Assembly (NCBI GenBank): GCA_011754535.1
Contig: JAAQVN010000001.1
Span: forward strand, 1,798,001 to 1,862,000
DNA: 64,000 bases
Source: Enterobacter asburiae
GTDB taxonomy: Bacteria > Pseudomonadota > Gammaproteobacteria > Enterobacterales > Enterobacteriaceae
Direction: 5' to 3'
Below the pieces are notes generated by a model. The model made no database searches, was not told the DNA's origin, and worked only from the letters and a program-made list of their open reading frames with translations. How positions within the stretch are numbered: position 1 is the first letter of the stretch; each line of letters starts with the position of its first letter. The position numbers and the translations under genes were made by a program. Positions 27,111 through 38,341 of the stretch are shown piece by piece.

Positions 27111-28394
27111 ATGAACAAGCATGACGAGCACGACGTGGCGGAACCTTCCCGACGTCGTTTGTTAAAAGGGGTCGGGGCGCTGGGCGGCGCGCTTGCCCTG
27201 GCAGGTGGCTGCCCGGTTGCGCATGCGGCGAAACCGCAAAGCGCTCCCGGCACGCTGTCGCCGGATGCCCGGATGGAGACGCAGCCGTTTTACGGTGAGC
27301 ACCAGGCGGGCATTCTGACGCCGCAGCAGGCTTCCATGATGCTGGTGGCCTTTGATTCGCTGGCCAGCGATAAGGCGGATCTGGAGCGGCTGTTCCGCCT
27401 GCTGACGGCGCGCATCGCGTTTCTTACCGCGGGCGGTCCGGCACCGGAGACGCCAAATCCGCGCCTGCCGCCGATGGATTCCGGTATCCTCGGGGCGTTT
27501 ATCGCGCCGGATAACCTGACCATCACCGTGTCGGTGGGGGACTCGATGTTTGATGGCCGCTATGGCCTGGCAAAGCAGAAGCCAAAAGCGCTGCAAAAAA
27601 TGACGCGCTTCCCGAATGACTCCCTCGACGCGGCGCTGTGCCACGGCGACCTGCTCCTGCAAATTTGTGCCAATACCCAGGATACGGTGATCCACGCCCT
27701 GCGCGATATCATCAAGCACACGCCGGATCTGCTGAGCGTGCGCTGGAAGCGGGAAGGGTTTATCTCCGATCACGCCGCGCGCAGCAAGGGGAAAGAGACC
27801 CCGGTGAACCTGCTGGGCTTTAAGGACGGTACGGCCAACCCGGACAGTCACGATGGTGCGCTCATGAAGGAGGTGGTGTGGGTCACTGCCGATCAGGGCG
27901 AACCGGCGTGGGCGGTGGGCGGCAGCTACCAGGCGGTGCGGATTATCCAGTTCCACGTGGAGTTCTGGGACCGCACGCCGCTGAAAGAGCAGCAGACGAT
28001 TTTCGGCCGCGACAAGCAGAGCGGGGCACCGCTGGGTATGAAGCACGAGCATGATGTGCCTGACTATGCGAGCGATCCGGATGGCGACGTTATCGCGCTC
28101 GACAGCCATATTCGCCTTGCTAACCCGCGCACCAAAGAGACGCAGTCCAGCCTGATGATGCGCCGTGGTTACAGCTATTCGCTGGGCGTGACCAACTCCG
28201 GGCAGCTTGATATGGGGCTGCTGTTCGTCTGCTATCAGCACGATCTGGAGAAAGGTTTCCTGACGGTGCAGAAGCGGTTAAACGGTGAAGCGCTGGAAGA
28301 GTACATTAAGCCCATCGGCGGCGGCTATTTCTTTGCCCTGCCCGGCGCGCGCGATGCTGGTGCGTATCTCGCTCAAGGGCTGCTCGAAGCCTGA
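27111..28394 (+). CDS. efeB: EfeB, Tat-exported DyP-type heme peroxidase
   Basis: A 427-residue dye-decolourising peroxidase exported folded by the Tat system. The signal has the twin-arginine pattern PSRRRLLKG at about residues 12-20 and a hydrophobic stretch ending AHA. The DyP motif GFKDGTANP, with the catalytic Asp, is at about residues 239-247. In EfeUOB it oxidises ferrous iron or removes iron from heme in the periplasm. It starts 5 bp after efeO, and a strong terminator follows. Confidence 0.96.
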
Positions 28395-28398
28395 TAAT

Positions 28399-28434
28399 TG
28401 TCCCTGCGATAGTTCGCAGGGACATTATTTTTTC
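28399..28434 (+). terminator. Terminator of efeUOB
   Basis: TGTCCCTGCGA and TCGCAGGGACA form an 11-bp stem around TAGT, followed by ATTATTTTTT. Confidence 0.92.
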
Positions 28435-28617
28435 ATATGACTAACATATTGTTATATTTCTGTAATATTTCTATATAAGACTGAATCCGCTGCAGGAGCA
28501 GTCTGAAAAGTTGCATTCAGGTAAAATAAATGTTGCATTTATGATAACTCCTGATGTACTTAAGATAAGACAGCGGTAGTTCCCGGCAGTGATGCTGAAT
28601 CACTATGGAGATCGCGA

Positions 28618-29685
28618 ATGGTTGCGTCCTGTACTGGACATGGTAAACATAACAACCGCAGCACCCGGCGCGGAGGCTTAGACTCCGGCAGCGATTTCCT
28701 CACCACTAAATTCTCCCCCACACCTCAAGAATCTGATTCGACCGACGTGCAGACCGGTGCGCGTAGCCGTTCTGTATCGTCATCTGATAAAGCAAGCAAT
28801 GGCTTACAAGGAAGCCAACCCTCTGATGTTCGTGCGCATAATCGTGCCGAAGCTGGCGCGTGTGATGAATACCAACAACTCAAGGTGCTATCCATGGGAA
28901 GACAAAAAGCAGTGATCAAAGCTCGTCGCGAAGCAAAACGTGTGCTGAGACGGGACTCACGTAGCCATAAACAGCGTGAAGAAGAATCGGTCACCTCGCT
29001 TGTGCAGATGAGTGGCGTAGAAGCAATTGGCATGGCCCGAGACAGCCGTGATAATTCTCCAATTGTGGCGCGCAATGAGGCTCAGGCGCACTACCTGAAT
29101 GCTATCGAGAGTAAACAGCTCATCTTTGCAACCGGTGAAGCCGGATGCGGGAAAACGTGGATCAGTGCGGCCAAAGCGGCGGAAGCGCTGATTCATAAGG
29201 ACGTGGAGCGCATTATTGTTACCCGTCCGGTACTGCAGGCGGATGAAGATCTCGGCTTCCTGCCCGGAGACATTTCGGAGAAGTTTGCCCCTTACTTCAG
29301 GCCCGTCTATGACGTGCTGGTGAAGCGACTGGGTGCATCCTTTATGCAGTACTGCCTGCGGCCAGAGATTGGCAAGGTGGAAATCGCGCCGTTCGCCTAT
29401 ATGCGCGGACGTACATTTGAAAATGCGGTCGTCATTCTTGACGAGGCTCAGAACGTGACCGCTGCGCAAATGAAGATGTTCTTAACGCGCCTCGGGGAGA
29501 ACGTGACGGTTATCGTTAACGGCGATATTACCCAGTGTGACCTGCCGTCCGGCGTAAAATCCGGGCTGAGCGACGCCATGTCACGTTTTGAGGAAGATGA
29601 GATGATTGGGGTGGTACGCTTCACCAAAGAGGACTGCGTGCGTTCAGCGCTGTGTCAGCGCACGCTGCAGGTCTATTCCGACTAA
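28618..29685 (+). CDS. phoH: PhoH, phosphate-starvation-inducible ATPase
   Basis: A 355-residue P-loop ATPase. Residues 1-92 are a low-complexity, Ser/Arg-rich segment unlike the rest. The conserved protein begins at an internal methionine (28894, MGRQKAVIKARREAKR) and carries Walker A GEAGCGKTW and Walker B VILDEAQN with the downstream GDITQCDLP sensor motif. PhoH is linked to RNA metabolism and is induced by phosphate starvation in E. coli. The start at 28618 has GGAG 7 bases before it; a small hairpin (28588-28604) precedes the ribosome site. Translation from 28894 as well is possible. Confidence 0.93.
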   Translation: MVASCTGHGKHNNRSTRRGGLDSGSDFLTTKFSPTPQESDSTDVQTGARSRSVSSSDKASNGLQGSQPSDVRAHNRAEAGACDEYQQLKVLSMGRQKAVIKARREAKRVLRRDSRSHKQREEESVTSLVQMSGVEAIGMARDSRDNSPIVARNEAQAHYLNAIESKQLIFATGEAGCGKTWISAAKAAEALIHKDVERIIVTRPVLQADEDLGFLPGDISEKFAPYFRPVYDVLVKRLGASFMQYCLRPEIGKVEIAPFAYMRGRTFENAVVILDEAQNVTAAQMKMFLTRLGENVTVIVNGDITQCDLPSGVKSGLSDAMSRFEEDEMIGVVRFTKEDCVRSALCQRTLQVYSD

Positions 29686-29723
29686 AGGTAAAGCATTATC
29701 GTTTTACCGCTTTCCTGTAATTT

Positions 29724-29754
29724 CTTCCCGGCGTCATGCCGGGAAGCGTCTTTT
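29724..29754 (+). terminator. Terminator of phoH
   Basis: CTTCCCGGC and GCCGGGAAG form a perfect 9-bp stem with a GTCAT loop, followed by CGTCTTTT. Confidence 0.85.
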
Positions 29755-29982
29755 ATTCTTTGCAGAATTCACCTGTTATTGATAATTAACCAATTCGATT
29801 ATTAATTTTTTTACGGCTGATTTTTATTTGAGCGGTAGAAGTGTGACATATGTTTATAATACCCACAAAATATCTATGAAGATAATGATCGCGCTAATCG
29901 TTAATTGAAAATCAAACGTGAATGTTGTCACAGAACATTACTACGGAGTAAAAATTAAGTTGTGTCTTCAGGGGAGTTATCT

Positions 29983-30050
29983 ATGTTTCGTACTTGTTCG
30001 AACAAAATTCTAAGAAGAAACGCAACAGGGGATCCGTTCCCCCGAAACAT
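29983..30050 (+). promoter_or_regulatory. Structured leader (predicted three-way junction) before the AGCS symporter
   Basis: ATGTTTCG (29983-29990) pairs with CGAAACAT (30043-30050) as an 8-bp closing stem. Inside are two hairpins, the palindrome TTGTTCGAACAA (29994-30005) and GGGGA-TCCGT-TCCCC (30028-30042). The second hairpin abuts the closing stem, so the two could stack. The element ends 17 bases before the symporter ATG. The first three bases are also the ATG of a 36-codon frame (29983-30093, 7 bases after GGGGAG) that overlaps the symporter start in another frame, so a leader peptide is an alternative reading. The rest of 29755-29982 is AT-rich with no gene. Confidence 0.5.
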
Positions 30051-30067
30051 CACGCTGAGGGTCATAC

Positions 30068-31573
30068 ATGAACGAACTGGTTGGTGCTATTAATGGTGTA
30101 ATCTGGAGCCCTGCGTTAATATTTTTATGTCTGGGTGTTGGCCTCTATTTCTCTCTTCGTAGCCGCTTTCTGCAGTTACGCCATATGAAACACATGATTA
30201 CCCTGATGTTCCAGGGGCGTCCTACGGATGCAGGCGTGTCGTCGTTTCAGGCGCTGACGATGACGCTGGCAGGCCGCGTGGGGACAGGGAATATCGCTGG
30301 TGTGGCCACGGCAATTACTTTTGGCGGTCCGGGCGCGCTTTTCTGGATGTGGATAGTCGCTTTTTTAGGCGCCAGTTCAGCATTTGTCGAATCCACCCTG
30401 GGTCAGGTTTATAAAGAAAAAATTAACGGCGAATATCGCGGTGGTCCTGCCTTTTATATTGAAAAAGGTTTAGGCGTTAAGTGGTACGCATGGTTATTTG
30501 CCATTGTGACTATTTTCTCCTGCGGGTTATTACTTCCGGGCGTGCAGGCAAACTCAATTGGTGCGAGCCTGGATATTGCCTTTGGTCTGAGTCCGAACGT
30601 GACCGCGGCATTACTTGCTGTGCTGTTAAGCTTTATTATTTTCGGCGGCGTGAAAAGGATCGCCAGCTTTAGCAGTATGGTCGTTCCATTTATGGCGCTG
30701 GGCTATATTATTGTCGCCTGCGTGATTATTGCCATTAATATTAACCAGCTCCCTTCGGTTATTCTGTTGATCTGGAAAAGCGCGTTCGGCCTGGAAGCAG
30801 GCTTTGGCGCCATCCTCGGTCAGGCGATTATGTGGGGCGTTAAGCGCGGCGTCTATTCTAACGAAGCGGCGCAGGGGACCGGGCCGCATGCGTCATCCGC
30901 GGCGGCGGTAAGCCATCCGGTGAAGCAGGGGCTGGTACAGGCATTCTCGGTCTATATCGACACGCTGTTTGTCTGCTCTGCGACCGGGTTTATGCTGCTG
31001 ATTACCGGGCTGTATAACGTCCAGGGCGTCGACGGCGCCGCGCTTTATACGGGAATTGCAGGCGTGGCCGCAGGTCCTGGCTACGTGCAGACGGCGATGG
31101 AAAGTATGATGCCGGGCTTTGGTAATTACTTTGTTGCCATTGCGCTGTTCTTCTTTGCCTTCACCACGATTATTGCCTACTACTATATTGCCGAAACCAA
31201 TATCGCCTACATCAACCGTAAAATTCACCGCCCGTGGCTGACGTTTCTGCTCAAGCTCTGTCTGATGGCCTCTACGGTCTATGGGACGGTTCGTACCGCG
31301 GATCTGGCATGGGGGCTGGGGGATATTGGGGTAGGGCTGATGGCATGGCTCAACATTATTGCCATTGTTCTGTTGCATAAAAAAGCGTTTGTTAGTCTGA
31401 AGGATTATGAAATTCAGAATGCGCAGGGGCTGGATCCACAGTTTGATCCGGTGCGTCTGGGGATTAAAAATGCGGATTACTGGCTTGATGGGCGTAAGGA
31501 TGAGGATGATGTTCAGCCTGAGCAGATATCGTCTCTTGAAAGAAATCAGCCGGCAGGGAAGTTGAATACCTAA
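30068..31573 (+). CDS. Alanine/glycine:cation symporter (AGCS family)
   Basis: A 501-residue inner-membrane symporter with 11 or so membrane segments. The AGCS signature LAGRVGTGNIAGVATAI (residues ~75-91) forms part of the amino-acid and Na+ site, and GVKRGVYSNEAAQGTGPHASSAAAVSHPVKQG is the second conserved block. Family members import alanine or glycine with Na+ or H+. GAGGG lies 8 bases before the ATG. It lies where K-12 has pgaABCD/ycdT. A long leader with a folded element lies upstream and a strong terminator follows. Confidence 0.88.
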   Translation: MNELVGAINGVIWSPALIFLCLGVGLYFSLRSRFLQLRHMKHMITLMFQGRPTDAGVSSFQALTMTLAGRVGTGNIAGVATAITFGGPGALFWMWIVAFLGASSAFVESTLGQVYKEKINGEYRGGPAFYIEKGLGVKWYAWLFAIVTIFSCGLLLPGVQANSIGASLDIAFGLSPNVTAALLAVLLSFIIFGGVKRIASFSSMVVPFMALGYIIVACVIIAININQLPSVILLIWKSAFGLEAGFGAILGQAIMWGVKRGVYSNEAAQGTGPHASSAAAVSHPVKQGLVQAFSVYIDTLFVCSATGFMLLITGLYNVQGVDGAALYTGIAGVAAGPGYVQTAMESMMPGFGNYFVAIALFFFAFTTIIAYYYIAETNIAYINRKIHRPWLTFLLKLCLMASTVYGTVRTADLAWGLGDIGVGLMAWLNIIAIVLLHKKAFVSLKDYEIQNAQGLDPQFDPVRLGIKNADYWLDGRKDEDDVQPEQISSLERNQPAGKLNT

Positions 31574-31582
31574 GGAATAGAA

Positions 31583-31618
31583 TAAAAAAAGCCCGTGCAT
31601 TAGTTCGGGCTTTTTTTT
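31583..31618 (+). terminator. Terminator of the AGCS symporter gene
   Basis: AAAAAAAGCCCG and CGGGCTTTTTTTT enclose a TGCATTAGTT loop. Confidence 0.92.
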
Positions 31619-31642
31619 GTCGCTTAGGCGGCTCAGTCCGCA

Positions 31643-31818
31643 CCGGGGGGGATTGACTCGCTTCGCTCGCCCTTCGGGCAGCCTGTTCGCTTCGCTCTCA
31701 GTCTGTCCAACTGGCTGCCGCCAGTTGTCGAACCCCGGTCGGGGGTTCTCATCCCCCCCTTTTCGGAGAATATAAAAGAAAAAAGCCCGTACTTTCGTAC
31801 GAGCTCTCATCTCAAATA
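31643..31818 (-). repeat. tRNA-Ser-associated structured repeat, copy 1 (with terminator)
   Basis: Lies directly downstream of the first tRNA-Ser gene. On the minus strand it holds an intrinsic terminator (31805-31779: 9-bp stem, GAAA loop, T-tract) and then a 113-nt unit closed by GGGGGGAT/ATCCCCCC (31646-31653 with 31751-31758). Inside are the hairpins CAACTGGC/GCCAGTTG and AACCCC/GGGGTT. It ends in a degenerate tRNA 3' end (CACCGGGGGGGATT in place of GGTGAGGGGGGGATT). The distance to the matching point in the tRNA is 183 bp, against 181 bp in the other copies. Confidence 0.85.
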
Positions 31819-31906
31819 TGGCGGTGAGGGGGGGATTCGAACCCCCGATACGTTGCCGTATACACACTTTCCAGGCGTGCTCCTTCAGCCACTCGGACAC
31901 CTCACC
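31819..31906 (-). tRNA. tRNA-Ser(GGA), first copy
   Basis: An 88-nt class II tRNA including the encoded CCA. Acceptor GGTGAGG pairs with CCTCACC, the anticodon GGA lies in CTGGAAA, the long variable arm and the T arm GGGGGTTCGAATCCCCC are intact. Its sequence appears identical to the second copy at 35107-35194. It has its own promoter upstream with a different sequence. Confidence 0.97.
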
Positions 31907-31949
31907 ATATTGTTTTGTTGCCTGACCGCTTGGGGGGCAACGGGGCGCT

Positions 31950-31978
31950 ACTATAGGGAGTTGCGCTAACACGGTCAA
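31950..31978 (-). promoter_or_regulatory. Sigma70 promoter of the first tRNA-Ser gene
   Basis: On the minus strand TTGACC, 17 bp, TATAGT, then the GC-rich discriminator AGCGCCCCG typical of stringently controlled stable-RNA promoters. The start would be about 35-40 bp before the tRNA. Confidence 0.85.
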
Positions 31979-32021
31979 GCAGATTTTCAGCTTTAGTGCC
32001 TGTTCGGTTAAGCATTAATCA

Positions 32022-32047
32022 GCTCCACGGTTTTTACGCCGTGGAGC
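32022..32047 (-). terminator. Hairpin after the isochorismatase-family gene
   Basis: GCTCCACGG and CCGTGGAGC form a perfect 9-bp stem, 7 bp beyond the stop of the hydrolase gene. The loop is T-rich but the tract after the stem is weak. Confidence 0.6.
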
Positions 32048-32053
32048 AGGGGA

Positions 32054-32731
32054 TTAACGCTGTGAATCGAGCACTTCGCTGTTTTTAACCACTTCCTGTG
32101 CTTTGCCGTAGCTTTCGATCAACAGCTGGTAAGCCGGGAAGATGTGGGTATACACCTCAGCCCACTCTGCCGCGTCTTCACGATTCCATGTGCGCTGGAT
32201 CTCTGAGGCCACCGCGGCGGTATCCATCGGCACAACGCCTGCCTGGACCACACGTGCCAGGGTGATCTCCTGCGCCATTTTGCTGTAGGTGCCGGAAGCA
32301 TCAATCACCGCAAACACTTTATAGCCGTCCGCCACCGCGCTGATGGACGGGAAGGCCATGCAGACGCTGGTGATTGTGCCGGCAATAATTAACGTCTTGC
32401 GACCGGTGGCTTTTACCGCCGCCACGAACTCCGGATTATCCCAGGCGTTGATCTCACCTTTGCGTGCCACATACTGGGCATGATGCGCGTTGGCGTGGAT
32501 CTCCGGGATAAGCGGGCCGTTCGGTCCCTGTGGAACGGAGGCCGTGGTGATCACCGGGATCTTGGCCAGCGTAGCAATTTTTGCCAGCGCCGCCGCACGG
32601 GCGCGCAGCTCCGGCATGGGCATGTCGCCGACGGTCTGGAACAGCCCGCTCTGGTGGTCGATAAGCAGCATGACGGCATCATTTACGTCAATGACCGGAC
32701 GTGCACCGTTGAAGTTTGCAGGGGTAGACAT
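32054..32731 (-). CDS. Isochorismatase-family (YcaC-like) cysteine hydrolase
   Basis: A 225-residue cysteine hydrolase. The catalytic triad is readable: Asp25 in LLIDHQSGL, Lys91 in ARKGEINAW and Cys124 in TITSVCMAFP. The closest well-known relative in layout is YcaC, an octameric hydrolase of unknown substrate. It lies 20 bp after the pirin gene on the same strand, so the two form an operon. Both are enclosed between the two tRNA-Ser genes, with a divergent LysR regulator. Substrate unknown. Confidence 0.87.
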   Translation of the reverse strand: MSTPANFNGARPVIDVNDAVMLLIDHQSGLFQTVGDMPMPELRARAAALAKIATLAKIPVITTASVPQGPNGPLIPEIHANAHHAQYVARKGEINAWDNPEFVAAVKATGRKTLIIAGTITSVCMAFPSISAVADGYKVFAVIDASGTYSKMAQEITLARVVQAGVVPMDTAAVASEIQRTWNREDAAEWAEVYTHIFPAYQLLIESYGKAQEVVKNSEVLDSQR

Positions 32732-32751
32732 ATTGCGCTCCTTTATTACGT

Positions 32752-33612
32752 TCAGATCTGGCCGAAGCGGCCGGAATTGAAATCACGAATGGCTTCGTTG
32801 ATTTCGCTTTTACTGTTCATCACAAATGGGCCATAGCCCACGATGGGTTCATTCAGCGGCTCGCCGGCCATCAGCAGCACTTTCGCGTCGCTGTTCGCTT
32901 CCAGATGCAGCTTGTTGCCTTCCTGACTCAATACGACCAGCTGGGCTTCACCTGCCTGCGTTGTACCGTTCACCGTTATGTTGCCTTCAAGCACGACCAG
33001 CGCGGTGCTCCAGCCTTCGGGCTGATTGAGCGTCAGATGGCTTCCCTGGTTCAGCGCGATGTCCCAGACGTTCAGCGGTGAGAAAGTGTGCGCAGGGCCG
33101 GTAACCTCGTCGTAGCGACCGGCAATCACCCGCAGGGTGCCGCTGTTATCCGGTAGCGTCACAACCGGGATATCGCTTTTGGTGATGCTCTGGTAGCCCG
33201 GTGCCGCCAATTTGTCTTTCGCCGGCAGGTTGACCCACAGCTGCATCATTTTCAGCTCGCCACCTTTCAGCGCGAAGGCGCTGGAGTGGAACTCCTCGTG
33301 CAGGATGCCTGCGCCTGCCGTCATCCACTGCACGTCGCCCGGGCCAATAACGCCACCTCTGCCGGTTGAGTCGCGGTGCTCCACTTCCCCGGAGTAGACG
33401 ATAGTGACCGTTTCAAAGCCGCGATGAGGATGCTCGCCCACGCCGCGTTTCGCGCCGTCCGCCGGGAAGGTGTACGGTCCGGCGTAGTCCAGCAGCAGGA
33501 ACGGGCTCAGCGGCTCGCCGTGCGTCTGGTAAGAAAACATTGAACGAACCGGGAAACCGTCACCGACCCAGTGCGGACGAGGTGCGGTATAAACGCCTGT
33601 TACGTTTTTCAT
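32752..33612 (-). CDS. Pirin-family protein
   Basis: A 286-residue bicupin of the pirin family, of which several bacterial members (for example YhhW) are quercetin 2,3-dioxygenases. The metal ligands of the N-terminal cupin are in HPHRGFETVTIVYSGEVEH (two His) and GILHEEFHS (His and Glu). The ATG at 33612 was chosen because AGGAG precedes it by 7 bases; the frame runs upstream to 33735 without a second ribosome site and would cross the LysR intergenic region. First gene of a two-gene operon with the isochorismatase-like hydrolase. Confidence 0.9.
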   Translation of the reverse strand: MKNVTGVYTAPRPHWVGDGFPVRSMFSYQTHGEPLSPFLLLDYAGPYTFPADGAKRGVGEHPHRGFETVTIVYSGEVEHRDSTGRGGVIGPGDVQWMTAGAGILHEEFHSSAFALKGGELKMMQLWVNLPAKDKLAAPGYQSITKSDIPVVTLPDNSGTLRVIAGRYDEVTGPAHTFSPLNVWDIALNQGSHLTLNQPEGWSTALVVLEGNITVNGTTQAGEAQLVVLSQEGNKLHLEANSDAKVLLMAGEPLNEPIVGYGPFVMNSKSEINEAIRDFNSGRFGQI

Positions 33613-33676
33613 GATGAGCTCCTGATGTTCTGTTGATGTAATTAGCTTATATTCAGGGTTAATATCCCGGTAGATA

Positions 33677-33693
33677 GTGAAATTGACATTCAC
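33677..33693. promoter_or_regulatory. Candidate LysR operator
   Basis: GTGAA-N7-TTCAC is a perfect inverted repeat in the 109-bp divergent promoter region between the pirin and LysR genes, 29 bp before the LysR start. It is a plausible autoregulatory site. Confidence 0.45.
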
Positions 33694-33721
33694 TGTTCTG
33701 AAAATGGAACGATGAGGGCGT

Positions 33722-34627
33722 ATGCAGGATCTCAATGATTTCGCGTGGTTTGTGAAGGTGGTGGACCATGCTGGGTTTGCGGCGGCGGGTCGGGCGCTCG
33801 ATCAGCCCAAGTCGAAACTGAGCCGCCGGATTGCTCAGCTGGAAGAGCGCCTTGGCGTGCGGTTGATCCAGCGCACTACGCGGCAGTTTACGGTGACCGA
33901 AGTCGGGCAGACCTTCTATCAGCACTGTAAAGCGATGATGGTGGAGGCCGAAGCTGCGCAAGAGGCGGTGGCGGCTTTACAGGCCGAGCCGCGCGGTGTG
34001 GTCAGGATCACCTGCCCGGTAACCTTGCTGCACGTTCACGTGGGGCCGATGCTGGCACGGTTTATGGCACGCTATCCGGGGATCAATCTTCAGCTTGAGG
34101 CCACCAACCGGCGAGTCGATCTGGTGGGCGAGGGCATTGACGTGGCGATCCGCGTTCGTCCACGTCCCTTTGACGACAGCGATCTGGTGTTAAGAGTGCT
34201 GGCAGACAGGGGGCACTGCCTGGTGGCGAGCCCTGCGCTGATTGAGCAGATGGGCAACCCTGCCGTGCCCTCTGAGCTGAGCGAATGGCCGGGGTTGAGC
34301 ATGGGGGCGGGAAAGCAGCTGCATAAATGGGAACTGGGCGGGCCGGACGGGGCAAAAGCGGAGATTCACTTTACGCCGCGCTTGATTACCACCGACATGC
34401 TGGCGCTGCGTGAGGCGGCAATGGCGGGGGTAGGGGTCGTGCAGCTGCCGATTTTGATGGTCAAGGATCAGCTGGCATCAGGGGAACTGGTGCGGGTGCT
34501 GGACGCATGGGAACCCAGACGGGAAGTGATTCACGCGGTTTATCCTTCCCGGCGCGGTCTGCTGCCGTCGGTCAGAACGCTGGTGGATTTTCTTACCGAA
34601 GAATATGCCCGGATGGTGGAGGAGTAA
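33722..34627 (+). CDS. LysR-family transcriptional regulator
   Basis: A 301-residue regulator. The N-terminal winged helix-turn-helix (residues ~1-60) includes FAAAGRALDQPKSKLSRRIAQLEERLGVRLIQRTTR. The effector-binding domain spans about 90-295. GAGGG lies 4 bases before the ATG. Divergent transcription from the pirin-hydrolase operon, as for most LysR proteins and their targets, makes those genes its likely regulon. The effector is unknown. Confidence 0.9.
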   Translation: MQDLNDFAWFVKVVDHAGFAAAGRALDQPKSKLSRRIAQLEERLGVRLIQRTTRQFTVTEVGQTFYQHCKAMMVEAEAAQEAVAALQAEPRGVVRITCPVTLLHVHVGPMLARFMARYPGINLQLEATNRRVDLVGEGIDVAIRVRPRPFDDSDLVLRVLADRGHCLVASPALIEQMGNPAVPSELSEWPGLSMGAGKQLHKWELGGPDGAKAEIHFTPRLITTDMLALREAAMAGVGVVQLPILMVKDQLASGELVRVLDAWEPRREVIHAVYPSRRGLLPSVRTLVDFLTEEYARMVEE

Positions 34628-34685
34628 CAATCCCCTTGCCTTGCGGGCTGAGGAATCCCCAGAAACTAATGCGAGCAGTAAACAA

Positions 34686-34723
34686 TTCCCTCGCCCCTTT
34701 GGGGAGAGGGTTAGGGTGAGGGG
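34686..34723. repeat. CCCTCACCC...GGGGAGAGGG-type hairpin repeat (inverted copy)
   Basis: Same dispersed repeat as at 16626 and 23092, here in the opposite orientation (GGGGAGAGGGTTAGGGTGAG), 58 bp after the LysR stop. Confidence 0.82.
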
Positions 34724-34744
34724 CTCAGGCCGCAACGAGCTGCT

Positions 34745-34925
34745 TATAGCACTGGGGGGGATTGACTCGCTTCGCTCGCCCTTCGGGCAGCCTGTTCGCT
34801 ACGCTCTCAGTCTGTCCAACTGGCTGCGCCAGTTGTCGAACCCCGGTCGGGGATTCTCATCCCCCCCTTATGGAGAATATAAAAGAAAAAAGCCCGTACT
34901 TTCGTACGAGCTCTCATCTCAAATA
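34745..34925 (-). repeat. tRNA-Ser-associated structured repeat, copy 2
   Basis: Distal unit of a tandem pair downstream of serX, 181 bp from the next. The folded unit closes with GGGGGGAT (34755-34762) and ATCCCCCC (34859-34866); the terminator hairpin lies at 34886-34912. It differs from copy 3 at two positions, both in predicted loops or bulges (TTC/TGC in the GCCC..GGGC loop; GGGGATTC/GGGGTTTC). Confidence 0.87.
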
Positions 34926-35106
34926 TGGCGGTGAGGGGGGGATTGACTCGCTTCGCTCGCCCTGCGGGCAGCCTGTTCGCTACGCTCTCAGTCTGTCCAA
35001 CTGGCTGCGCCAGTTGTCGAACCCCGGTCGGGGTTTCTCATCCCCCCCTTATGGAGAATATAAAAGAAAAAAGCCCGTACTTTCGTACGAGCTCTCATCT
35101 CAAATA
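34926..35106 (-). repeat. tRNA-Ser-associated structured repeat, copy 3, with tRNA 3'-end scar
   Basis: Unit directly downstream of serX. Its distal end, TGGCGGTGAGGGGGGGATT at 34926-34944 on the plus strand, equals the last 19 bases of the tRNA gene including CCA, after which it diverges. The folded segment is 34936-35047 and the terminator 35067-35093. The matching point recurs exactly every 181 bp (34761, 34942, 35123). Confidence 0.9.
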
Positions 35107-35194
35107 TGGCGGTGAGGGGGGGATTCGAACCCCCGATACGTTGCCGTATACACACTTTCCAGGCGTGCTCCTTCAGCCACTCGGACACCTCACC
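35107..35194 (-). tRNA. serX: tRNA-Ser(GGA), second copy (serX position)
   Basis: An 88-nt tRNA-Ser with anticodon GGA and encoded CCA, apparently identical to the copy at 31819-31906. It lies upstream of and divergent from ghrA, which is the position of serX in E. coli, so this is taken as the ancestral copy. Tandem 181-bp repeats follow its 3' end. Confidence 0.97.
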
Positions 35195-35228
35195 ATATTG
35201 TCATCCCGTTGTTGTCGGGACGGGCGCT

Positions 35229-35257
35229 AATGTAAGGAAAAGCCGAACTGCCGTCAA
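35229..35257 (-). promoter_or_regulatory. Sigma70 promoter of serX
   Basis: On the minus strand TTGACG, 17 bp, TACATT, then the GC-rich discriminator AGCGCCCG. It shares layout but not sequence with the promoter of the other tRNA-Ser copy. Confidence 0.8.
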
Positions 35258-35426
35258 CTCAATTTTTCAGTAATTTAGCGCGTTTAGACAAACTTCAGGC
35301 AACATGATTCTTAAATGTGCTGAAAGCGTCTTTTTTATCAACAACACAGTCGCGCAATAAATTTGCTATGCTGACCGTCCAGTTAAAAAGCAAACTAAAT
35401 CAGCGCAATAAAAGGCAGGAATGACT

Positions 35427-36365
35427 ATGGATATACTCTTCTATCACCCCACTTTTGATACGGCTTACTGGATTGAAGCGCTTTCTGCGGCGCTGCCGGG
35501 CGCTCGCGTTCGTGAATGGAAGCGGGGCGATAACGAACATGCCGACTACGCGCTGGTCTGGCATCCTCCGGTGGAAATGCTTCAGGGCCGTAAGCTGAAA
35601 GCCGTGTTTGCACTCGGGGCCGGCGTGGATTCCATTCTGAGCAAACTAAAGGCACACCCTGAAATGCTGCCGGAAGAGATCCCTCTGTTCCGCCTGGAAG
35701 ATACCGGAATGGGGCAGCAAATGCAGGAATATGCCGTGAGCCAGGTGCTGCACTGGTTCCGCCGCTTCGACGATTATCAAGCCTTTAAACAGCAGGCCCA
35801 CTGGGAGCCGCTGCCGGATTACCGTCGCGAAGATTTTACAATCGGCATCCTCGGCGCCGGCGTGCTGGGCTCAAAAGTGGCTGAAGCGCTTGCCCCGTGG
35901 GGCTTCCCGCTGCGCTGCTGGAGCCGCAGCCGTAAGGATTATCCGGGCGTTGAGAGTTTTGCCGGAACGGATGAGCTTCCGGCCTTCCTGAGCGGCACGC
36001 GCGTGCTGATCAACCTGCTGCCCAATACGGCGGAAACGGTAGGGATCATCAATGAAGCCTTGCTCAATCAGCTGGTCGATCAGAGCTACCTGATGAACCT
36101 GGCGCGCGGGGTGCATCTGGTCGAGCCGGATCTGCTGAAGGCGCTGGACAGCGGGAAGCTTAAAGGCGCCATGCTGGATGTTTACAGCCGTGAACCGCTG
36201 CCGGAGGAAAGCCCGCTGTGGCGACATCCGCGCGTGGCCATGACGCCGCACGTGGCCGCCGTCACGCGACCGGCCGAGGCGGTGGCCTATATCTCGCACA
36301 CGATTGGTGAAATAGAGAAGGGTAACCCGGTTACCGGGCAGGTCGACAGACAGCGCGGCTACTGA
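35427..36365 (+). CDS. ghrA: Glyoxylate/hydroxypyruvate reductase A
   Basis: A 312-residue D-2-hydroxyacid dehydrogenase that reduces glyoxylate and hydroxypyruvate with NADPH. The nucleotide loop is [13 protein letters not shown], and the catalytic Arg (LARGVH), Glu ([11 protein letters not shown]) and His (TPHVAA) are in place. The ATG at 35427 gives the E. coli length and has AGGA 7 bases upstream; an ATG at 35421 is the alternative. A terminator follows and the ycdXY genes are next, as in E. coli. Confidence 0.95.
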
Positions 36366-36368
36366 GAG

Positions 36369-36392
36369 AAACCCGGCGTTCGCCGGGTTTTT
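36369..36392 (+). terminator. Terminator of ghrA
   Basis: AAACCCGGCG-TT-CGCCGGGTTTTT, a GC stem with a T-run. Confidence 0.9.
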
Positions 36393-36449
36393 GCTAATAT
36401 TCGCCGCTGATAACTGCTATCCTTTGGAAAAAACGCAGAGGAGAGAAAG

Positions 36450-37187
36450 ATGTATCCCGTTGACCTGCATATGCACACCGTCGCCAGTACCCACGCGTAT
36501 AGCAACCTCCATGATTATATCGCTCAGGCGAAGCTTAAAGGCATCAAGCTATTTGCGATAACCGATCACGGCCCGGATATGGCGGATGCGCCGCACTACT
36601 GGCATTTTGTGAATATGCGTATCTGGCCGCGTCTGGTGGACGGCATCGGGATACTGCGCGGCATTGAGGCGAACATCAAAAACACCGACGGTGAAATTGA
36701 CTGCACCGGCCCGATGCTGACCTCCTTAGATCTGATCCTCGCCGGTTTCCATGAGCCGGTTTTCCCGCCGCAGGATAAAGAGACTAATACCGCGGCGATG
36801 ATTGCCACCATTGCCAGCGGCAATGTGCATATCATTAGCCACCCGGGCAACCCGAAGTACCCGATTGATATTCAGGCCGTGGCGCAGGCCGCGGCGAAAC
36901 ACCGCGTGGCGCTGGAGATTAATAACTCCTCGTTCGTGCACTCGCGTAAGGGCAGTGAAGCCAACTGTCGCGAAGTGGCTGCCGCCGTGCGTAATGCGGG
37001 TGGCATGGTGGCGCTGGGCTCTGATTCGCACACGGCCTTCACGCTGGGGGATTTCAGCGAGTGCCTGAAAATATTGCAGGATGTGGATTTCCCGGAAGAA
37101 CGCATCCTGAACGTCACGCCGCGTCGTATGCTCGATTTCCTTGAGTCGCGCGGCATGGCGCCGATTGATGAATTTGCCGATCTTTAA
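36450..37187 (+). CDS. ycdX: YcdX, PHP-domain zinc phosphatase
   Basis: A 245-residue PHP-domain protein with a trinuclear zinc site. The ligands are in HMHTVAS (residues 7-13), DHGPD, the internal Glu, HPGNP, and DSH near the C-terminus. E. coli YcdX has phosphatase activity and contributes to swarming; the natural substrate is unsettled. GGAG lies before the ATG. It is followed 20 bp later by ycdY. Confidence 0.95.
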
Positions 37188-37207
37188 TTGAATAACGGAA
37201 TAAAATA

Positions 37208-37762
37208 ATGAATGAATTCTCCATCCTTTGCCGCGTGCTGGGCTCCCTCTATTATCGCCAGCCGCAGGATCCGCTGCTGGTTCCGCTGTTTACGCTGATT
37301 CGCGAAGGTAAGCTGGCGCAGAACTGGCCGCTGGAACAGGATGAGTTACTGGAACGCCTGCAGAAAAGCTGCGATATGCAGCAGATCTCAACGGACTACA
37401 ACGCGCTGTTCGTAGGCGAAGAGTGCCGCGTGTCGCCGTATCGTTCTGCCTGGCAGGAAGGGGCGACCGAAGCGGAAGTGCGGGCATTTCTCTCCGAACG
37501 CGGGATGCCGCTGAGCGATACGCCAGCCGATCATATCGGTACGCTGCTGCTGGCAGCCTCCTGGATCGAAGACAACGCAGGCGACGATGAAAATGAAGCC
37601 ATCGGGATCCTCTTCGAGACGTATCTGCTGCCGTGGGTCGGAACCTTTCTGGGTAAAGTGGAGGCCCATGCCACCTCTCCGTTCTGGAGAACGCTGGCCC
37701 CGCTGACGCGTGACGCCATCGCAGCAATGTGGGACGAGCTGGAAGAAGAAGCTGAAGAGTGA
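37208..37762 (+). CDS. ycdY: YcdY, TorD-family chaperone
   Basis: A 184-residue all-helical TorD/DmsD-like protein. The acidic loop EECRVSPYRSAWQEG and the SDTPADHIGTLLL segment (D-x-x-x-D-H-I) are the family hallmark. In E. coli YcdY is reported to assist metal loading of YcdX. The gene directly follows ycdX. A CRP-like site overlaps its stop codon. Confidence 0.94.
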   Translation: MNEFSILCRVLGSLYYRQPQDPLLVPLFTLIREGKLAQNWPLEQDELLERLQKSCDMQQISTDYNALFVGEECRVSPYRSAWQEGATEAEVRAFLSERGMPLSDTPADHIGTLLLAASWIEDNAGDDENEAIGILFETYLLPWVGTFLGKVEAHATSPFWRTLAPLTRDAIAAMWDELEEEAEE

Positions 37763-37773
37763 TTTTCATCACA
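37758..37773. promoter_or_regulatory. Candidate CRP site upstream of ycdZ
   Basis: AGTGATTTTCATCACA fits TGTGA-N6-TCACA with one mismatch. It overlaps the ycdY stop codon and lies 100 bp upstream of ycdZ. Confidence 0.65.
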
Positions 37774-37830
37774 AAAATTCTGCAACGATACATTTCCGCA
37801 TGCACGTACTGTGCTTTCGATCTCATTTCT

Positions 37831-37860
37831 ATGGCGCGCATCTGCTAAGATGCGCGCCAT
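37831..37860 (+). promoter_or_regulatory. Hairpin covering the ycdZ start codon
   Basis: ATGGCGCGCAT and ATGCGCGCCAT form a perfect 11-bp inverted repeat with an 8-base loop. The last two bases are the first two of the ycdZ ATG. No Shine-Dalgarno sequence is visible, so the hairpin could limit initiation, or the upstream in-frame ATG codons (37811, 37850) could be used. Confidence 0.6.
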
Positions 37861-38341
37861 GAACATATTACTTTGTATTGCGATCACGACAGGCATTCTC
37901 TCCGGTGTTTGGGGATGGGTAGCGGTGTCTCTCGGTTTATTAAGCTGGGCTGGCTTCCTGGGCTGCACGGCCTATTTCGCCTGTCCTCAGGGCGGGCTGA
38001 AAGGGCTCTTTATCTCAGGCTGCACGCTGATGAGCGGCGTGATCTGGGCGCTGGTCATCATGAAGGGCAGCGCGCTGGCGCCGCATCTGGAGATGCTGGG
38101 GTACGTCATGACGGGGGTTGTCGCCTTCCTGATGTGCATCCAGGCGAAGCATCTGCTGCTGTCGTTCGTGCCGGGCACCTTTATGGGGGCCTGCGCGACC
38201 TTCGCCGGGCAGGGGGACTGGAAGCTGGTGGTTCCTTCCCTGGCGCTGGGACTGCTGTTTGGCTACGCCATGAAGAACAGCGGCCTTTGGCTGGCGGCGC
38301 GACGGGAAAAAACGCAAAACATCACCGCGGTGAGTGAATAA
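37859..38341 (+). CDS. ycdZ: YcdZ, DUF1097 inner-membrane protein
   Basis: A 160-residue membrane protein with about five membrane segments, of the DUF1097 family; close to E. coli YcdZ throughout (MNILLCIAITTGILSG, then WGWVAVSLGLLSWAGFLGCT). Function unknown; it looks like a small transporter or anion-permeability protein. The start at 37859 is set by alignment with E. coli; the frame extends upstream to 37811. A CRP-like site and a start-codon hairpin lie upstream. Confidence 0.9.
   Translation: MNILLCIAITTGILSGVWGWVAVSLGLLSWAGFLGCTAYFACPQGGLKGLFISGCTLMSGVIWALVIMKGSALAPHLEMLGYVMTGVVAFLMCIQAKHLLLSFVPGTFMGACATFAGQGDWKLVVPSLALGLLFGYAMKNSGLWLAARREKTQNITAVSE

Follow-up and report, generated by a model that had tools for sequence, protein, structure and literature searches.

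Two tRNA-Ser(GGA) genes of Enterobacter asburiae are each followed by structured repeat units that are RtT RNAs, or tRNA-linked repeats (TLRs), a known family and not a new unit. The three units lie on the reverse strand of contig JAAQVN010000001.1 (assembly GCA_011754535.1, positions 1,798,001-1,862,000), within a stretch of 64,000 nt that we refer to as the window and whose numbering is used throughout. Comparison with related units from other genomes suggests that the outer stem of each element is matched to its own tRNA. As an overall explanation we lean, with somewhat better than even confidence, towards RtT RNAs that are released along with tRNA synthesis, reside in recombining arrays and carry a core that would bind protein.

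The repeat units downstream of tRNA-Ser(GGA) are RtT RNAs

An initial annotation, made from the letters alone, had reported three repeat copies, and all three lie where it placed them, with lengths of 181, 181 and 183 nt and a spacing of 181 nt for the adjacent pair. Units 1 and 3 start at the base right after the CCA of a tRNA-Ser gene and unit 2 follows directly behind unit 1, all on the same strand, which is the placement of a TLR, directly downstream of a tRNA or rRNA gene in the same orientation. Unit 1 consists of a terminator-like hairpin, a closed multi-hairpin RNA and a full copy of the tRNA 3′ end with CCA.

35107-35194 (-): tRNA-Ser(GGA) gene (ARAGORN)
34926-35106 (-): RtT/TLR unit 1, 181 nt (RF00391 match over 34926-35062; repeats; fold)
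35069-35096 (-): terminator-like hairpin between tRNA and RtT core, unit 1 (terminator scan)
34935-35048 (-): structured segment of unit 1, 5′ arm GGGGGGGAT, 3′ arm ATCCCCCCC (folds, covariation)
34926-34944 (-): 19-nt copy of the tRNA-Ser 3′ end (AATCCCCCCCTCACCGCCA), in unit 1 (sequence comparison)
34745-34925 (-): RtT/TLR unit 2, 181 nt, last of its array (RF00391 match over 34745-34881; repeats)
34888-34915 (-): terminator-like hairpin, unit 2 (terminator scan)
31819-31906 (-): second tRNA-Ser(GGA) gene (ARAGORN)
31636-31818 (-): RtT/TLR unit 3, 183 nt, behind the second tRNA-Ser (repeats; RF00391 match below gathering)
31781-31808 (-): terminator-like hairpin, unit 3 (terminator scan)

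Against RF00391, the Rfam model of RtT, units 1 and 2 scored above the gathering score of 45 bits (54.0 and 46.9 bits) and unit 3 just below it (44.0 bits). The architecture had been likened to that of E. coli tyrT/rtT, and the likeness goes beyond analogy; the accompanying claim of a different unit fell, since the Rfam family is the same and both E. coli records opened carry an annotated 'RtT sRNA' right after the matching tRNA-Ser, with ghrA on the other side. The first tRNA-Ser gene of the window likewise adjoins a ghrA-like gene (35421-36365; Pfam 2-Hacid_dh_C match), as in the E. coli gene order. Similar DNA occurs somewhere in 5374 of 5426 complete E. coli genomes, and this Enterobacter genome holds further RtT elements behind tRNA-Tyr (98.5 bits), tRNA-Lys (59.0 bits) and tRNA-Arg (41.1 bits, below the cut-off).

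The window units share with rtT of tyrT, whose repeat period we take to be about 178 bp, the covariance family, the tRNA 3′-end copy, the position right behind the tRNA and the tandem arrangement. They differ in their host tRNA (Ser(GGA) versus Tyr), in having a terminator-like hairpin in each unit and in that unit 3 lies 1 bit under gathering. The E. coli TLRs in general resemble them in a 3′ end identical to the upstream tRNA over 18-19 nt and in numbering one to five per locus, but the array-final window units lack the tail beyond ATCCCCCCC. In E. coli K-12, 22 TLRs are distributed over ten loci, with one to five per locus and 18-19 bp copied from the upstream RNA; TLRs were first described in 1978 and are presented as without known function before the 2021 paper (PMC8144298). 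Some attenuators linked to bacterial interspersed mosaic elements (BIMEs) are similar to rtT (PMC2965389). Existing labels mislead: Rfam types RtT as 'Cis-reg', and RefSeq notes the tRNA-Ser copy as 'processed from tyrT transcript'.

A 19-nt tRNA 3′ end with CCA had been ascribed to every unit. This is correct for the internal unit only, which matches the tRNA at 19 of 19 nt; units 2 and 3, which end their arrays, retain 10 nt, keeping AATCCCCCCC and then diverging, so that the tRNA-derived tail ends after ATCCCCCCC in unit 2 and is lost after the same arm in unit 3. Units 1 and 2 are identical at 172 of 181 positions. Since unit 2 lacks the complete tRNA 3′ end with CCA that unit 1 carries, seven of their nine differences cluster in the final nine bases. 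The remaining two agree in part with the claim that differences are confined to loops, as one lies in a loop (CCCGCAGGG / CCCGAAGGG) and the other in the AACCCC stem.

The closed segment folds stably and shows covariation

In the predicted fold, GGGGGGGAT and ATCCCCCCC close the segment as annotated, and CAACTGGC/GCCAGTTG and AACCCC/GGGGTT form hairpins inside it. The folding energy is -55.7 kcal/mol (z = -4.54), a stability reached by 0 of 200 shuffles. In unit 1 the 5′ arm is the inverse of the tRNA 3′ strand. The annotated hairpin with a GAAA loop and a T-rich tail recurs in all three units; the terminator scan by itself proves nothing, since shuffled sequence gave on average 4.0 terminator-like sites and the region has 4.

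Covariation, whose absence had been named beforehand as part of what would refute the initial reading, was present among tRNA-Ser-linked units. The alignment held 23 of 26 distinct Ser units, drawn from this genus, from E. coli and from other enterics, leaving out two further copies of locus L076 and one of L278, and was read against a structure of 34 pairs drawn by hand from the window folds, with a CCC/GGG hairpin that is absent from the predicted fold of unit 1. In this set 95.0% of cells were paired and 11 of the 34 pairs were changed on both sides, mostly in helices 3 and 4 (9 of 14 pairs). The covariation measure amounted to 0.150 versus 0.074 after shuffling, with 0 of 500 shuffles reaching the observed value, and the same 0 of 500 applied to four of the five measures used. 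Sliding the partners by 1-3 columns lowered the pairing to 28-56% of cells and covariation to 0.025-0.073. RNAalifold applied to an alignment of 90 cores (A1) had returned only 8 pairs, probably because MAFFT did not align hairpins of unequal length, and covariation was therefore counted on the Ser subset.

A core of the form CCCGNAGGG[C/T]GA...GA[G/A]T is found across the class Gammaproteobacteria and in one family outside it. For RtT, CaCoFold detected extra covariation in the form of a tandem G-A motif (PMC7657543).

The outer stem appears matched to the upstream tRNA

An RF00391 survey under strict filters, by which weak matches are lost, returned RtT in 33 of 60 genomes of the window's family, Enterobacteriaceae, and in 56 of 377 genomes of the class; 24 of the 27 family genomes without a match are at most 2.4 Mb in size. 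The matches listed, excluding those of this genome itself, yielded 179 stretches with 254 units, of which the family contributed 147 and the class 107 (the latter termed the wider set). A tRNA gene precedes the unit on the same strand in 235 of the 254, within 60 nt in 174 of these, and nine of the 19 units without a recognised upstream tRNA have at most 330 nt of flank. After removal of these 19 and of two units whose tRNA end lacks CCA, 233 units were analysed.

In 193 of the 233 units, the tail agrees with the unit's own tRNA at no fewer than 18 of 19 nt, a match that within arrays is also expected from tandem duplication. An exact copy of the own tRNA's specific 11-mer was present in 197 of 233 units, and none turned up in 9198 comparisons made with tRNAs for different amino acids. 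The 5′ arm, whose motif was found in 149 of the 233, resembled the inverse of positions 63-68 of the own tRNA with a mean of 4.29 of 6 over 39 T-arm types, against a mean of 2.27 for permuted tRNAs (highest of 5000 permutations, 2.87). Likewise, the bases after the 5′ arm resembled the inverse of tRNA 49-51 (1.90 of 3 versus 1.04 permuted), and the start of the core a direct copy of tRNA 49-51 with GGTTCGA (1.54 of 3 versus 1.07; 216 of 233 units, 47 types). For none of the three segments did any of the 5000 group permutations attain the observed mean. The segments are interdependent in that 49-51 and 63-65 pair in the tRNA, and, as the groups were T-arm types and related genomes can share similar types, the result is not a clean probability. 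The order within a unit is thus inverted T-arm, half T-arm, core, and then the other half of the T-arm with the acceptor strand and CCA, an arrangement in which the outer stem appears to be fitted to the tRNA that the element follows. A search for the whole 11-mer in inverted form had given little contrast because many arms stop near the T-stem, and it was replaced by the segment-wise tests.

At enteric tRNA-Ser(GGA) loci the T-stem varies (CCCCC, CCCTT, CCCTC), and the arm varies along with it. A replication on 23 further elements, of which at least L261 is apparently the same record as L156 of the first set, gave a mean of 5.8 own pairs beyond positions 61-62 versus 1.9 with other tRNAs, and five or more own pairs in 13 of 23 versus 17 of 454.

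RtT loci are widespread and look inherited in enterics

The RtT family is widespread in Gammaproteobacteria and present in one family outside that class. Among 23 genomes of the same genus, 17 carry one to five full-length Ser units, two carry partial units only and four carry none, in line with the variable copy number proposed initially. No match to the Ser-unit DNA was found in 16 genomes from other families of the order. In a phylum sample, 29 of 299 genomes were positive, and the matches outside Gammaproteobacteria fell in one other family, in 11 genomes. Of 17 units opened in this outside family, 13 have an upstream tRNA (Ser, Gln or Asp), and in nine of the 13 the tail agrees with it at no fewer than 18 of 19 nt. 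RtT units of this family (L294-L309) include several with GGA loops.

One rival explanation is a small mobile or selfish element that spreads by insertion at tRNA 3′ ends and takes up the sequence of each new tRNA. One and the same core does stand at Tyr, Lys, Pro, Ser, Arg, Gln, Glu and Asp tRNA genes, with ends matching each host tRNA. We compared cores only, at 149 loci (79 from the window's family and 70 from the wider set). Of the 79 loci in the window's family, 72 had their nearest core at a tRNA for the same amino acid, 50 times in another genome and 22 times in their own, and none had it at a different tRNA of their own genome, which does not support, for this family, the initial proposal of propagation through tRNA 3′ ends as a recent process. 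Of the 70 wider-set loci, 42 had their nearest core at a tRNA for the same amino acid and 26 at one for a different amino acid in a different genome; for the remaining 2 it belonged to another tRNA within their own genome. Between genomes, identity averaged 0.686 for the same amino acid and 0.684 for different ones. These cores are not clearly sorted by tRNA, so transfers in the distant past may have occurred. A mobile element would be marked by recent copies at new positions in one genome; these were not seen, with a less clear picture in the wider, divergent set. Mobile replicons also speak against such an element, since only 1 of 50,697 phage records was matched, over 18% of the query, and 40 of 72,556 plasmid records, several of them chromosome-sized and 36 predicted to be non-mobilizable. 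We consider a mobile element improbable. The enteric RtT loci look inherited and not freshly colonised, a signal that is weak in the divergent wider set, and an older spread of units between tRNA types is possible.

A GGA-loop branch shares its core with RrB

The E. coli elements rrA, rrB and rrF are arranged in the order terminator, element, terminator, and RrB binds CsrA in vitro, a binding lost on changing three GGA, two of them in loops (PMC8144298). The core of E. coli RrB aligned to the five best of 90 RtT cores with local scores of 32-36, compared with at most 19.5 in 100 mononucleotide shuffles, while its RF00391 score is 21.1 bits only. RrA/RrB/RrF and the window units are thus alike in that the RrB core is alignable with tRNA-linked RtT cores and lies between two terminators in a stable-RNA transcript, and they differ in the CsrA-binding GGA apical loops, which no window unit has.

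Other tRNA-linked units do have such loops. Counts were taken from a regular-expression parse that covered 78 of 107 wider-set and 119 of 147 window's-family units, the rest being dropped. Among wider-set apical loops of at least four bases, 37 of 82 in 79 cores contained GGA, whereas 20 shuffles averaged 14.1 such loops and never exceeded 20. GGA occurred in both hairpins 1 and 3 in 14 units, in one of them in 4 and 5, and in neither in 55 (Fisher p = 2.5e-8; by genome 11, 4, 5 and 28, p = 1.5e-4), counts that treat related units as separate. In the window's family, 0 of 119 units had GGA in both loops and 12 of 119 in one. A single GGA pattern was found in tRNA-linked form in named sources that include Sedimenticola, Chromatiales, Salinisphaeraceae and Acidiferrobacterales. 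Of its 21 matches, 14 have a tRNA within 1500 nt, with a tail equal at 17 or 18 of 18 in 12 of these 14; the pattern contains CAGGGATG, so only the other hairpin is independent evidence. Seven matches lack a tRNA within 1500 nt upstream, two have a tRNA that does not match the tail, and the match at L262 looks like chance. In searches of the open-access literature, supplements aside, we recognised no paper on tRNA-linked TLRs with GGA loops or on the matching of arm to tRNA.

From the shared RrB core, the GGA loops and the binding data for RrB, the tRNA-linked GGA-loop branch probably binds CsrA. The csrA gene is present in this genome; of 20 further genomes examined, most of them picked for their GGA-type units, 16 also have it. 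This raises the question of whether the window units are themselves CsrA sponges, as their core is common to RrB and the GGA-loop branch, and unit 1 contains two GGA, one within the closing arm and the other at the base of the CAACTGGC hairpin. However, the folds of all three window units lack GGA in their apical loops, and the predictor of CsrB/C-like RNAs gave values below 0.01 for all 19 tRNA-linked E. coli TLRs (PMC8144298), making such a role very improbable. Among the known sponges CsrB, CsrC and RsmZ, a resemblance is confined to the GGA-loop branch of RtT, in contrast to the window units without GGA loops, and none of these families matched above gathering in window positions 28000-38000. 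The window units are, given the missing loop GGA and the low predictor values, members of the known family with at most a putative partner.

Several RtT loci lie near csrA. Of 13 loci linked to tRNA-Ser(GCT), 11 have csrA within the fetched stretch (L144, L162, L163, L176, L183, L190, L201, L218, L229, L230 and L238); at L230 and L238 both loops of the unit contain GGA. The tRNA-Arg RtT of this genome (L006) is also near csrA, and in two genomes (G162 and G303) a unit of the GGA-loop branch stands just behind csrA and tRNA-Ser(GCT). We did not count this proximity in support of a CsrA role, because csrA-serV is a long-standing gene neighbourhood and GGA loops are missing from several of these units. 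An rrB match occurs in 3914 of 5426 E. coli genomes; within about 330 nt behind the eight 5S-end matches of this genome (L280-L287) no rrB-type TLR was found.

Proposed release with the tRNA and competing explanations

The favoured explanation would proceed as follows. Readthrough of the first hairpin would give a transcript that contains both the tRNA and RtT. In it, the inverted 5′ arm would pair with the copied tRNA 3′ strand, which has CCA at its end if the copy is complete; the enzymes that finish tRNA 3′ ends would act on this strand and so release a separate structured RNA, in amounts that follow tRNA synthesis. Arrays would grow and shrink as their repeated tRNA 3′ ends recombine, and the core would serve as a platform for protein, with CsrA as the probable ligand in the GGA-loop branch and at most a putative ligand in the window's branch, which has no loop GGA. 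Release on tRNA processing is plausible by analogy with related RNAs: RrB transcripts measure about 173 and 115 nt and RNase E is proposed to recognise the RrB repeat (PMC8144298), and two RtT RNAs of Actinobacillus gave Northern signals (PMC4986893). An E. coli laboratory line has lost one tRNA-Tyr gene together with its RtT (PMC12584984), which fits recombination and makes RtT dispensable there. For the window units themselves, any function is inferred.

A number of observations weigh against this explanation. The terminator-like hairpin precedes the core, so most transcripts may stop short of it, and the line without tyrT RtT is viable. No tRNA was recognised upstream of ten of the 254 units even though their flank there spans 900 nt or more. 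Pairing between arm and tRNA is weak for many Lys and Ser units, and also for some Ser and Glu elements of the replication set. The fifth covariation measure, the number of further pair types, did not rise above shuffles (85 of 500), the closing helix has double changes in only one of nine pairs, and helices 5 and 6 are invariant; moreover, the structure was taken from one of the aligned sequences and related rows inflate the contrast. Finally, at 15 positions where tail and tRNA mismatch, the arm pairs with the tail only at 4, with the tRNA only at 4, with both at 3 and with neither at 4, so that selection for pairing is indistinguishable here from a by-product of palindrome correction.

This last point leads to a by-product without RNA function, in which old tandem duplications of tRNA 3′ ends with palindromic filler are kept similar by recombination and by palindrome correction during replication. 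Such correction would give matched arms without selection, tandem duplication within AATCCCCCCC predicts that only the internal window unit has a complete tail, and both the survival of the tyrT RtT-less line and the withdrawal of the stringent-response claim for rtT (PMC8144298) agree with a lack of function. It accounts less readily for the compensatory changes in the inner hairpins 3 and 4, which are unrelated to the tRNA, even if palindrome correction could produce these as well, for a core with the tandem G-A motif kept across the class and one outside family, and for apical-loop GGA that is enriched while stems change. We regard it as unlikely. The role in the stringent response first proposed for tyrT rtT in 1991 (cited in PMC8144298 and PMC4986893) has hardly any credit left, as the claim was later retracted and the phenotype came from a nearby reading frame (PMC8144298).

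More broadly, and only tentatively, since we expect it to fail rather than hold in full, RtT/TLR may be old, widespread regulatory RNAs through which global regulation is tied to the synthesis of stable RNA. The helix with the 3′ strand of the own tRNA would allow excision by tRNA maturation enzymes and two variable loops would choose the ligand; the GGA branch, at tRNA genes of many non-enteric Gammaproteobacteria and beyond, would be a CsrA sponge metered by tRNA transcription, and the enteric branch, mostly without loop GGA, would have a different protein partner. The comparison offers two testable handles: CsrA binding, expected of RtT RNAs at tRNA genes whose loops carry GGA, and the dependence of excision on the tRNA-matched helix.

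Further features of the locus and minor observations

31585-31616 (-): second hairpin with a T run beyond unit 3 (read from sequence and repeats; absent from the terminator scan output)
35229-35257 (-): promoter-like site upstream of the first tRNA-Ser (promoter scan)
31950-31978 (-): promoter-like site upstream of the second tRNA-Ser (promoter scan)

Owing to the hairpin beyond unit 3, the order around this unit is terminator, RtT, terminator, matching the arrangement of E. coli rrA, rrB and rrF (PMC8144298). The two promoter-like sites are to be read against 2.0 expected in shuffles.

Between the two tRNA-Ser genes with their RtT copies, 31907-35106 spans about 3.2 kb with isochorismatase-family, pirin and LysR genes. 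Ser-unit matches lie about 3.06-3.3 kb apart in eight genomes of the same genus, and this recurring spacing suggests that the paired tRNA-Ser/RtT copies about 3 kb apart are an old duplication.

Of the ten tRNA-less RtT-like units with long flanks (at L174, L175, L193, L202, L212, L216, L240 and L245), five end in a tRNA-like tail with CCA, and in five a tRNA lies downstream instead; they may be what is left of tRNA genes that were lost or altered.

Of 75 parsed third hairpins in the window's family, 65 have loops of three bases, largely GNA. As d(GCGNAGC) forms an unusually stable DNA hairpin, the enteric RtT cores may conceivably have a role as single-stranded DNA.

Elsewhere in the window, Rfam Ysr251 (Yersinia sRNA 251) matched 29484-29677 (-) with 140.3 bits, just upstream of a sodium:alanine symporter gene (30068-31573).

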